A DNA stretch of 64,000 nt from an uncultured Pseudomonadota bacterium (GTDB taxonomy: Bacteria; Myxococcota_A; UBA796; SXON01), in contig CAIXRH010000242.1 in NCBI GenBank assembly GCA_903921785.1, forward strand, positions 1-64,000, read 5' to 3'. The notes under the pieces were generated by a model. That model made no database searches. It worked only from the letters and a program-made list of their open reading frames with translations, and was not told the origin of the DNA. The position numbers and the translations under genes are program-made. Of this stretch, positions 31,892-37,593 are shown one piece after another; the stretch's first letter is position 1, and every line of letters starts with the position of its first letter.

Positions 31892-33613
<1,722 letters not shown>

Positions 33614-33821: not shown

Positions 33822-36548
33822 TCAGCCCGCGTCGACTCGAGCCTCCCAGGCCTTGCGGAGCGGCTCCAGCGCGCCCCGCTTCAGCTCCTTCGCCAGGGTG
33901 ACGAAGGCGCCGGTGCGAACGTCGCGAACCGCCACCCCGTCGAAGTGGTAGGCGCGGGCCGCGGCCACCTCGGCGGGCCGGGCGCTGCGGAGGGCGCCGC
34001 CGAGCAGCACCAGCGTGTCGCGGTCCACCCCGCGGAAAGCACGGTTGCTGCCCCGCTCCGCGAGCGTCACCACCACCCGGGCGCGCACCTCCTCAACGAA
34101 GGTGCCCGCGCCGCGTCGGGCGTCCGTCGCCGTGCCAGAGACCACACCCGCCCGCCGAGGCAGGACCTCCACGAGCAGGCGGTCGGCGTCGCCGTCCTTG
34201 CGGCGCCGCCGATGCAGCCCCGCCTCCATCGCGAGCAGGTGCACGAGCCCCGGCCCTTCGACCTCGAAGATCGCGCCCACCACCCGCTCCCCGACCGTCT
34301 CCTCCGCGACGAGCGTGGGCTGCAGCCCGAGCCGCTTGAGCCACGCCGCCTCCACCGCGACCAGCTCCTCCAGCCACTCCGCGTCCACGTGGCCGTTGGC
34401 CTCTGCGGGCCCCACCACCACGAAGGCGCCGTCCTCCCCGGTGTCGACGTCGAGGAGGCGCCAGCGGCGACGAGCTTCCGCCGCTTCGACGAGGGTCTTT
34501 CGGAGGCGGTCTTCGTCGGCGTCGGCGGGGAGCGCGTCGAGGTGGCGGAGGGCGCCGAGGAGGCGGGCGTCGGCGGCGATCCGCGCGTCCAGGGTGCGGT
34601 AGCGGAGCAGCACCGCGTTGGCGCGGTTGGCGTCGGCCCAGAAGTCGGGGGCGGCGCTCGCATCGAGGAGGGCCTGTGCTTCGTGGCGGCGTTCTTCGTG
34701 AGCGGCAACGAGCGGCACCCACGCGGCCTTGGCGGCCGCCACGTCGGCGTCCACCACCACCGCCGCGGCTTCGGCGGGCGGGTGCACCACCGCCTCCTCC
34801 GCGCGGCGAACGTCGACACGGCCCCCGCGGATGCCCAAGACCAGCGCCTCGCCGTCGCGCACGGAGTGACCCACGATGAACGCGGCGAGCGGCCCGACGA
34901 GGTTGCGCTCCATCTCCCGACGGAGGAACCGCGCGCCGAAGTGCGGGTGGTAGCCGTGGGCGACGAGCCAGTCGAGCACGTCGGCGTCCACCTTCACGGG
35001 GATGTCGCGGCCAGCGAGGCCCTCGCGCTCGAGGAGCCACGTGAGCTCGCGCTGGGCGATCGCCCGGATCGTGGGGCGGGAGAGCGGGTGGAAGTGGACG
35101 ACCCGATCGAAGCGGTTGAGGAACTCGAACCGGAAGACCTGGAGGACCCGCCGGTCGAGCTCCGCGTCGAGTGAGCGGGTGTCCCGCGACTCGGAGAAGC
35201 CCACGCCCGACTCACGGTACACCTCCGCACCGGCGTTGCTCGTGGCGATCACGATGAGGCTGCGTACGGACACCGTCTCGTTGTTGCCGTTGGTGTACCT
35301 GCCCTCGTCCACCAGCTCGAGCAGGCCGTCGTGCACGGTCCGGTCGGCCTTCTCCAGCTCGTCGAGCAGGAGCACCCCGAACGGCGCATTGCCGAGGCGC
35401 TTCGCCAGCTCCCCGCGCCTCCCGTCGACGTTCGGCGCAGCCGGCGAGCCGAAGAGCTTCGGATGGCCACCCGGCCCGCCGAAGTCGGAGAGGTTCACCC
35501 GGATCATCCGGCCCTTGTCGCCGAAAAAGTACTCGGCGAGCAGCTGCGCGGTGTGGGTCTTGCCCACGCCGCTCGGGCCGACGAAGAGGAAGACCCCGAA
35601 GGGGCGCCGCGGATCTGCGAGGTTCGCCTTGATGAGCGCGACCACTCGCACCACCGCGTCCGCCGCCTCCTCCTGACCCAGCAGCCGGTCGGTGACGAAG
35701 CGGCGGGTGGCGGCGATGTCGAGGTCCACTGCGGGATCGACCAGCGGCGCCGGGACGCGGGTGACGTCGCAGAAGCGGTGGACGACGTCGCGGAGCCCGA
35801 CGGCGTCGGCGCCAGCGGCGAGGTCGCGGGACTCGCGGAGGAGGTCGAGCGCCTTGCGAGGGAAGTGGCGGTTGCCGATGAAGCGACCGGTGAGATCGAT
35901 GGCGGCGCGCTGCGCGGCCGGGGTGATCGTGCGACCGCTGCGTGAGCGCTGATCCTCCGCCCACAACGCGACGATCTGGCGCGTCTTGGCCGTGGACGGC
36001 TCCTCCACGTTCACCGTGACCAGCCACTCGGCCAGGTCCGGCGTGAAGTCGAGCATCTGCTGGACCTCGCGCCGCGCGCCCTCGGCCAGGAACGGGCGGA
36101 CACCCGCCGTTCCGAGGCGGAGCACCACCGACTCCCAGTCGAGCGAGAACGCGAGGTGGAGGTCCCGGATGAAGGGGACGATGGGCGTGGGGGAACGGAG
36201 GATATGGTCGACGATCGCCTGGAATTGCTCGGCGCCGTCGCTCGACTCCTTGAACCGGCTGGAGATCGCACGGAGCGAGAGCTGCACGAAGCGCGCGCCG
36301 CGAAAGCAGGCCGGTCCCCTCCCCTCGGCAGCGGCCACGACGATCGCGTGGATCGCCGCCGACTTGCCCACGCCCGCCGGCCCGACGAGCACCGGCGTGC
36401 GCCGGCCTTCGGCCACCAGCACGTCGGTGACCTGGGCGATCACATCCTCCAAGCCGAAGACCGGCAACAGGCGACCCCCTCGGGCGGCCTCCGTGAGGTC
36501 GAGCTCGATCCAATCTTCGAAGACGAACGGCTTGTCGGCCTTGCCCAT
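33822..36548 (-). CDS. Clp-type double AAA+ ATPase fused to a degenerate RF2-like release-factor module
   Basis: The product has 908 residues. The first AAA+ domain has Walker A GPAGVGKS at residues 56-63. The second has Walker A GPSGVGKTHTAQ near 325, Walker B VLLLDELEKA, sensor ATSNAGAE and a ClpB D2-small region to about 590. Residues 610-908 follow release factor 2: DFWADANRA near 635, the central domain ending EAGLHRRRRK (775-784), GAGTFVEEVR at 813-822 where RF2 has GAGGQHVN, and AVRDVRTG near 872 like the RF2 tail IKDLRTG. The SPF (stop-codon) position reads DGD, and GGQ (peptide release) is lost. It is probably an ATP-driven unfoldase that docks on the ribosome. rpsA follows. The ATG at 36548 is chosen; earlier codons look non-coding. 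Confidence 0.82.
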   Translation of the reverse strand: MGKADKPFVFEDWIELDLTEAARGGRLLPVFGLEDVIAQVTDVLVAEGRRTPVLVGPAGVGKSAAIHAIVVAAAEGRGPACFRGARFVQLSLRAISSRFKESSDGAEQFQAIVDHILRSPTPIVPFIRDLHLAFSLDWESVVLRLGTAGVRPFLAEGARREVQQMLDFTPDLAEWLVTVNVEEPSTAKTRQIVALWAEDQRSRSGRTITPAAQRAAIDLTGRFIGNRHFPRKALDLLRESRDLAAGADAVGLRDVVHRFCDVTRVPAPLVDPAVDLDIAATRRFVTDRLLGQEEAADAVVRVVALIKANLADPRRPFGVFLFVGPSGVGKTHTAQLLAEYFFGDKGRMIRVNLSDFGGPGGHPKLFGSPAAPNVDGRRGELAKRLGNAPFGVLLLDELEKADRTVHDGLLELVDEGRYTNGNNETVSVRSLIVIATSNAGAEVYRESGVGFSESRDTRSLDAELDRRVLQVFRFEFLNRFDRVVHFHPLSRPTIRAIAQRELTWLLEREGLAGRDIPVKVDADVLDWLVAHGYHPHFGARFLRREMERNLVGPLAAFIVGHSVRDGEALVLGIRGGRVDVRRAEEAVVHPPAEAAAVVVDADVAAAKAAWVPLVAAHEERRHEAQALLDASAAPDFWADANRANAVLLRYRTLDARIAADARLLGALRHLDALPADADEDRLRKTLVEAAEARRRWRLLDVDTGEDGAFVVVGPAEANGHVDAEWLEELVAVEAAWLKRLGLQPTLVAEETVGERVVGAIFEVEGPGLVHLLAMEAGLHRRRRKDGDADRLLVEVLPRRAGVVSGTATDARRGAGTFVEEVRARVVVTLAERGSNRAFRGVDRDTLVLLGGALRSARPAEVAAARAYHFDGVAVRDVRTGAFVTLAKELKRGALEPLRKAWEARVDAG

Positions 36549-36570: not shown

Positions 36571-37593
36571 CTACCCCGGCAGCGGCGCGGCGGCGGGTTC
36601 GCCGGACAGCCCGGCGGCGAGCGCCGGGGTGAATTCGGCGGCGCCCTCCGCGTTGAGGTGGTCGAAGTCGTTGAACTTCGCCTGGTCATCGTCGTAGCGG
36701 AGGGAATAGTCGAGGAAGACCGTGCCCGGGTGTGCCGCCGCGAGCTGGACGAACGCCTCGATGGCGGCCGTCTGGTACTCGGGCTCGATGGTCGCGCGCA
36801 GCATGGGCCGCATCGGGAGCATGAGCAGCACGGTGCGCTTCGCGTGCGCGGCCTCGACGACCTCGCCGAGGCGGGCGACGCAGCCTTCGTGGACGGCCGG
36901 CACCCACGTCGAGAGCTTGCCGCCGAGGAGGAACTCGCGGCGGTTGCGGGCGTTGTCCGGGGTGAGGTCCGGCGCGGGCTCGCCAGGCCACCGGGTGATC
37001 CGCCCGCGGGTGCCGTGGCGGAGGTCGCCGATCGTCGTGACGAGGTGCGCGGGGTCCTTCAGGTGCTCGACGAGGTCGTGGCGACGCCCGCTCCCGGCGA
37101 GCCAGCGGTGCGGAAGGACCGTCATCGCCAGGGCGGAGGGACGGTTCTCGACGCCGAGATCGCCCGCAGCGTCGAACCACCACGGCTGCATCGCCACGTG
37201 GGGGATCGGCGGTCGGCGGCAGCTCGTCTGGTCGAAGAGCAGAGGACCGACCTCGATCATCAGCACATCGAGGCCAGGGTGGGCGTCGGAGAGGGTGAGC
37301 AGCTCGGGGTAGCTCGGGGGGAGCGCGTTGTCGGTGAGGGTGTGACGGGCGAGCCGCTGCCAGGCGAAGCCGGTCTCCGCGGCGAGCACCGCCATGTCCA
37401 CGTCGGCGCCAGCGCGCGAACTCCCAAGGAACAACCCTCGTACCGGCCCGTCGCCGAGCGGGAGATCGCCGTCCCAGAACGCCTCGCCCCACGCGCAGTA
37501 CGGCTCGTGGACCGAGAGGGTCCACCACACGGCGGTCGGCGCGACGAACAAGGTCGCGGCGACGCCGGCGAGGAATCGGACGAGCCCGCGCAT
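36571..37593 (-). CDS. Membrane-anchored SGNH-hydrolase-like protein
   Basis: The 340-residue protein has one N-terminal helix (about residues 5-25, FLAGVAATLFVAPTAVWWTL) and an extracytoplasmic domain. It has two SGNH landmarks: RGLFLGSSRAGADVDM, with a Ser in block I position, and DFDHLNAEGAAEF near the end, matching the DxxH block V. IEVGPLLFDQT and VLLMLPMRPML fit the strands between. DltD- and AlgX-like acyl-transfer proteins share this outline. The substrate is unknown. It starts 24 bp from, and divergent to, the DUF2079 gene, and ends 23 bp before the Clp/RF2 gene. Confidence 0.65.
   Translation of the reverse strand: MRGLVRFLAGVAATLFVAPTAVWWTLSVHEPYCAWGEAFWDGDLPLGDGPVRGLFLGSSRAGADVDMAVLAAETGFAWQRLARHTLTDNALPPSYPELLTLSDAHPGLDVLMIEVGPLLFDQTSCRRPPIPHVAMQPWWFDAAGDLGVENRPSALAMTVLPHRWLAGSGRRHDLVEHLKDPAHLVTTIGDLRHGTRGRITRWPGEPAPDLTPDNARNRREFLLGGKLSTWVPAVHEGCVARLGEVVEAAHAKRTVLLMLPMRPMLRATIEPEYQTAAIEAFVQLAAAHPGTVFLDYSLRYDDDQAKFNDFDHLNAEGAAEFTPALAAGLSGEPAAAPLPG

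Follow-up and report, generated by a model that had tools for sequence, protein, structure and literature searches.

A Clp-type AAA+ protein fused to a disarmed, release factor 2-derived module in freshwater Myxococcota

The window analyzed here, a stretch of 64,000 nucleotides (positions 1 to 64,000 of contig CAIXRH010000242.1, assembly GCA_903921785.1) from an uncultured bacterium placed by GTDB in Myxococcota_A (UBA796; SXON01), contains a gene for a 908-residue protein joining a Clp-type double AAA+ ATPase (residues 1-582; Pfam AAA_2, 1.4e-28; ClpB_D2-small, 3.9e-12) to a C-terminal module derived from peptide chain release factor 2 (RF2). Bacterial class-1 release factors are normally stand-alone proteins. 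The coordinates given for this gene in an original prediction, made from the sequence by itself, are correct, and the strand, which that prediction left unstated, is minus. The features of the fusion gene are listed below, as supported by motif alignments, profile searches and AlphaFold2 (AF2) models with their predicted local distance difference test (pLDDT) scores; S1 denotes the subfamily to which the protein belongs, and S2 its sister subfamily.

33822..36548, minus strand: Clp-RF2 fusion gene, 908 aa (MGKADKPFVF...), S1 subfamily
35739..36521, minus strand: AAA+ ring D1 (residues ~10-270) with its P-loop retained and the acids of Walker B missing (full-length AF2 model and motif alignment)
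36360..36383, minus strand: D1 Walker A, GPAGVGKS (residues 56-63; motif alignment)
36156..36173, minus strand: D1 Walker B position, FIRDLH (residues 126-131), degenerate, IDE in ClpA/ClpB (motif alignment)
34803..35717, minus strand: AAA+ ring D2 and small domain (residues ~278-582), ATPase motifs intact (Pfam, motif alignment, AF2 model, Foldseek)
35556..35579, minus strand: D2 Walker A, GPSGVGKT (residues 324-331; motif alignment)
35412..35456, minus strand: D2 pore-loop-1 region, LFGSPAAPNVDGRRG (residues 365-379), without the GYVG of ClpA/ClpB (motif alignment)
35346..35369, minus strand: D2 Walker B, LLDELEKA (residues 394-401; motif alignment)
35196..35204, minus strand: VGF tripeptide (residues 449-451) at the position of the ClpA/ClpC ClpP-docking loop (motif alignment; putative function)
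34758..34796, minus strand: flexible linker (residues 585-597), pLDDT < 50 (full-length AF2 model)
33825..34754, minus strand: RF2-derived module (residues 599-908), a helical PCRF-like domain and beta domains (profiles, AF2, Foldseek, controls)
34182..34211, minus strand: SPF-loop position, RRRRKDGDAD (residues 780-789), shortened, without SPF (RF2 alignment)
34089..34118, minus strand: GGQ-loop position around RRGAGTFVEE (residues 811-820), without GGQ (RF2 alignment)
33912..33956, minus strand: R-x-Y ... D-x-R-T segment (residues 865-879), conserved in RF2 and kept in S1 (RF2 alignment)

The RF2 descent of residues ~599-908, which in a single-sequence search match Pfam PCRF at E=5e-4 (under the gathering score), is carried by family-level evidence. 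A profile built from 19 S1 modules and searched against the whole PDB matched nearly the whole of RF2, beginning in the helical N-terminal domain and ending with the final strand (E=1.6e-18), and all 38 matches at E<=1e-3 were RF2 or RF1. The corresponding profile of the S2 sister modules reached RF2 at 1.2e-21, and individual proteins (two S2 and one deep S1 member) exceeded the PCRF cut-off of 24 bits with 46.9, 36.7 and 27.6 bits. In profile-profile comparison, S1 modules matched RF2 at E=1e-21, as compared with 0.2-0.7 for column-shuffled RF2 and 0.04 for an unrelated D2 domain used as controls. A template-free AF2 model of the module, built on the 19 S1 sequences from an alignment without RF2 (mean pLDDT 86.9, predicted template modeling score 0.72), retrieved RF1 or RF2 chains in 50 of the 50 PDB matches listed by Foldseek (best 1.4e-13); the moderate template modeling scores of these matches (0.33-0.57) are to be expected, since this is a multi-domain protein whose domains move. 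Among the 379 Myxococcota genomes to which our sampling was confined, the S2 profile also picks up genuine RF2 across the phylum (with some match in 348 genomes) and thus provides independent evidence of RF2 descent. In a module tree, the fusion modules jointly occupy one side of a branch from RF2, subject to the caveat of long branches. Overall, Pfam, family profiles, structure and controls agree that the fusion of a full-length RF2-derived module to a Clp ATPase is real, as originally predicted from an alignment by eye that itself proved correct.

The known contacts of RF2 with the ribosome are made by the SPF loop, the switch loop, the GGQ loop and the long domain-3 helix. We have compared the 19 S1 modules with 11 genuine RF2s (ten of this phylum and one outgroup) and found SPF and GGQ at their RF2 positions in none of the former and in all of the latter, in line with the losses reported in the original prediction. 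SPF is missing from a shortened loop in all 35 fusion proteins aligned. Retention in S1 of residues conserved in RF2 is ~0% for both the SPF and the switch loop and 0% for the Q of GGQ, as opposed to 95-100% for the E-x-G-x-H-R, R-x-Y and D-x-R-T motifs; in the full-length model, the long helix following GGQ is shortened to ~13 residues. A refinement comes from S2, where the GG of GGQ often survives. One S2 fusion (L066:644-3403) has retained GGQ (QFGGQL) at the place it holds in RF2, where its 71%-identical relative L065 has FEQPI. In another fusion (L069:7653-10961, G035:C4), which has an N-terminal membrane-like segment, the GGQ domain of the RF2-like tail is seemingly cut out almost entirely. 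Ratios of nonsynonymous to synonymous substitution rates (dN/dS) of 0.12-0.42 for the module vs. 0.03-0.20 for D2 in seven S1 pairs (rough NG86 estimates) indicate that the module is under purifying selection. Judged by these known motifs, the module would be unable to read stop codons or to hydrolyze peptidyl-tRNA; with SPF, switch loop and GGQ lost, it is therefore catalytically and decoding-dead by known criteria, yet kept. Thus, the fusion module shares with RF2 (prfB; PCRF PF03462 and RF-1 PF00472) the full domain order, the fold and the FW, ExGxHR, RxY and DxRT residues, but differs from it in lacking SPF, switch loop, GGQ and the long domain-3 helix and in being fused C-terminally to a Clp ATPase; the PF00472 model no longer finds the fusion protein. 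The suggestion that it keeps a ribosome-binding shape holds for the fold and fails for these loops and the helix.

The ATPase part is most similar in Foldseek searches with the full-length model to ClpC1, ClpC and ClpB (E about 1e-38 over ~590 residues). The D2 Walker A, Walker B (DELEKA), sensor 1, arginine finger and sensor 2 are intact in all S1 and nearly all S2 proteins, and degenerate in L078. D1 keeps its P-loop, but the acids of its Walker B are lost in all S1 and S2 proteins: almost every S1 member reads IRD(L/I)H at this motif, and S2 is FSD/ITD-like. At most one ATPase ring (D2) would thus be working, so that the two AAA+ motors originally proposed reduce to one, intact in its ATPase motifs but without GYVG. 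An [VLI]GF tripeptide occupies the ClpP-docking position in nearly all S1 and most S2 proteins and is absent from ClpB; the genome encodes a single ClpP. The protein is no ordinary ClpB or ClpA, with NCBIfam equivalog scores far under the cut-offs (270 vs. 1232 bits and 244 vs. 993 bits, respectively). It resembles the Hsp100 double-ring proteins ClpC/ClpC1, ClpB and ClpA in D1-D2 fold and intact D2 ATPase motifs, and ClpA/ClpC also in the [VLI]GF loop, but is unlike them in lacking the D1 Walker B acids, the D2 GYVG and the Clp N-domain and in having an RF2-derived tail. Matches to PADLOC defense ATPases were limited to the generic D2 AAA core, with no defense-specific part matched, and a defense-system reading was dropped on this ground.

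The family is not confined to this genome. With the C-terminal 392 residues as a query, eight members of its own genus and one of its family were found at 48-87% identity (over aligned pieces), along with more distant members across the phylum at identities down to 30%; a contig scan with a close-relative query yielded lake-water "Deltaproteobacteria" and unclassified bacterial metagenome-assembled genomes. S2 has the same architecture with a better preserved module. Among the 379 sampled genomes, S1 was counted in 21, S2 in 18 and either in 37 (both in two). In ATPase trees, each subfamily forms one clade, and each has retained its own module over a long divergence. The S1 clade includes an S1-type ATPase of 596 aa (L075:6306-8096, G289:C90) that ends right after D2, with no module downstream in the stretch read. 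A third, operon type (O-type) comprises proteins of ~1100 aa with an extra N-terminal domain, encoded by one to three adjacent Clp-like genes (three at L160, L161, L163, L164, L166, L168 and L080; two at L083, L165 and L167). Such adjacent sets of two or three different genes occur in many Myxococcota, with gene sizes of about 1120-1220, 1130-1210 and 750-1020 aa, the longer ones with decayed RF2-like tails and the shortest often with none. Profile comparison still relates the operon-type tails to RF2 (one class at E=7e-14, the others at 3e-7 and 8e-9; controls 0.5-0.7), with mainly the PCRF-like part aligning. The operon-type profile, which includes a few S2 proteins, has matches at E<=1e-170 in at least 52 of the genomes. 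The pairs and trios suggest hetero-oligomers, and these multi-gene sets look like an undescribed hetero-oligomeric AAA+ system; the S1 fusion is one branch of a larger Myxococcota clan. Loss of the D2 GYVG with D2 ATPase motifs intact is seen clan-wide (L080, L083, L076, L069 and S2 loci). Two further possibilities were abandoned: a mobile origin, as the module had no tblastn match in plasmids or phages, and recoding at stop codons "inside" relatives, the stops being natural because the open frames of those relatives finish where the alignment ends.

The genes flanking the fusion gene are the following:

31892..33613, minus strand: rpsA (30S ribosomal protein S1), next gene, 208 bp downstream of the fusion gene
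36571..37563, minus strand: SGNH-type gene (assigned by eye), upstream, ending 22 bp before the fusion gene, start not fixed

The orthologue of the SGNH-type gene has no Pfam match. The location directly before rpsA, pointed out originally, is genuine and conserved within the GTDB family, in seven relatives holding both genes. It recurs in an eighth genome (G166:C5, L074/L090), where the fusion gene is split over several frames (a pseudogene or an assembly error) with rpsA still adjoining. Upstream lie aroA-cmk in one genus of the family and cmk-MBOAT-SGNH-type in another. These arrangements correspond, with insertions, to the order aroA-cmk-rpsA, which is widespread in many bacteria. In several relatives this site has no fusion gene, and rpsA is directly preceded by the SGNH-type gene (G220, G210) or by cmk (G137, G088, G262). 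The adjacency is therefore weakened as a functional link, the site being an old housekeeping operon from which the gene is missing in relatives. Distant members have no neighbor gene in common and no translation-gene neighbors. The genome also encodes tmRNA, SmpB, an ArfB-like protein, RF1 and RF2, and the presence of all five led us to reject a replacement of the usual rescue pathways.

Taken together, we favor, at roughly even odds (about 0.5), a reading in which the disarmed RF2 serves as a recognition arm on a single-motor Clp-type remodeler; this and the two leading alternatives discussed below overlap. A ClpC/ClpB-like Hsp100 ATPase would have gained a whole RF2 at its C-terminus, which was then disarmed and kept. 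The protein would act as a presumably hexameric remodeler, with D1 as a structural ring lacking normal ATP hydrolysis and D2 as the sole working motor, and with six RF2-derived modules on flexible linkers as probable recognition arms that would have given up stop-codon reading together with SPF and the switch loop, and peptide release together with GGQ. Upon binding of a partner by the arms, D2 may pull or rearrange it, and the partner could possibly be handed to ClpP via the VGF loop. Judging from the origin of the module, a translation component is a plausible partner. Several observations weigh against this scheme. The D2 GYVG pore loop, present in the ClpA-like and ClpB proteins of the same genome, is lost in S1, S2 and the operon type, and the D1 pore loop, kept in S2 (GTRYLGE), is altered from YxG to FKx in most S1 members (alignment re-read by eye); threading may therefore be impaired, and remodeling is possibly not the action. 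Other AAA+ proteins of the clan have an [LIV]GF loop as well, which makes the case for ClpP docking a weak one. The module evolves faster than D2 by the rough dN/dS estimates, and the module-less S1 relative suggests that the ATPase may work without it.

A credible alternative, though less likely than not, is that the module has been converted into a ribosome-independent protein-binding or ring-assembly domain, whose origin would say nothing about its function. Consistent with this are the loss of all known functional tips with the fold-core residues staying in place, the increasingly eroded tails of the tandem Clp-like operons (in which one member of a trio often has no tail at all), the apparent hetero-oligomers of the O-type pairs and trios, and a translation neighborhood conserved in one family only. 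The retention of ExGxH, RxY and DxRT across all 19 S1 proteins, perhaps beyond what bare upkeep of the fold would need, speaks against it.

The role put forward in the original prediction, an energy-driven factor clearing stalled ribosomes or nascent chains, is possible and, in our judgment, rather doubtful. With the dead RF2 docked at the L7/L12 stalk or in the ribosomal A site, the ATPase would extract the nascent chain or split the complex, as a bacterial parallel to Vms1 with Cdc48. The RF2 origin of the module, its preserved N-terminal helical domain and the placement by rpsA in one family are compatible with such a role, as is the rescue function of dead release-factor paralogues elsewhere (Dom34, PMC6514570). 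However, every tip of known RF2-ribosome contact is lost, the operon-type relatives align mainly over the PCRF-like part, the distant members have no translation genes next to them, several relatives have an aroA-cmk-rpsA site without the fusion gene, and the established rescue and release factors are all encoded in the genome. Dom34/Pelota and baeRF-1, catalytically dead release factors of the archaeo-eukaryotic type, share with the module the idea of a release-factor paralogue minus its catalytic glutamine, but have an unrelated aeRF-1 fold and no AAA+ in the same chain; Vms1/VLRF-1 with Cdc48, in eukaryotic ribosome quality control, likewise combines a release-factor-type domain with an AAA+ motor, but in separate chains and with an unrelated release-factor fold, which makes it a functional analogy and not a homology (PMC6514570). 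On a wider scale, we consider it conceivable, at similarly low confidence, that the Myxococcota Clp-type clan as a whole, as single-gene proteins or two-/three-gene hetero-oligomers, finds ribosomes or termination complexes via disarmed RF2 modules and remodels them with ATP, which would make it a bacterial counterpart, within one chain, of quality control by a release factor and an AAA+ motor.

That the module still releases peptides or recognizes stop codons through unusual residues is highly improbable: the GG pair surviving in several S2 members and the lone GGQ of L066 might hint at it, but GGQ is absent from every S1 protein, L066 is the only S2 protein that has it, and no S1 member has an SPF loop of full length. 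A chance resemblance, a misalignment or a misread tail on an ordinary ClpA/ClpB, for which the sub-threshold single-sequence PCRF score might have argued, is ruled out for practical purposes by the family profiles, the Foldseek structure match, the shuffled controls and the sister proteins above the Pfam cut-off.

A survey of bacterial and archaeo-eukaryotic release factors mentions AAA+ proteins only for Cdc48/Vms1 and Clp never (PMC6514570). We found no description of a Clp-RF2 fusion family in the open-licence literature, and the family is apparently undescribed; both halves are already detected by Pfam models in some members, which makes the architecture visible to databases.

Overall, a complete RF2 that has lost all of its known functional tips sits behind a Clp motor, is maintained by selection and has diversified within one phylum, as a conserved family occurring in freshwater Myxococcota in which translation-termination machinery has come to form part of an AAA+ system. 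Should the module still find ribosomes, this would represent a novel form of ribosome quality control in bacteria; should it no longer do so, the family would clearly illustrate how a translation factor can turn into a domain for recognition or assembly.
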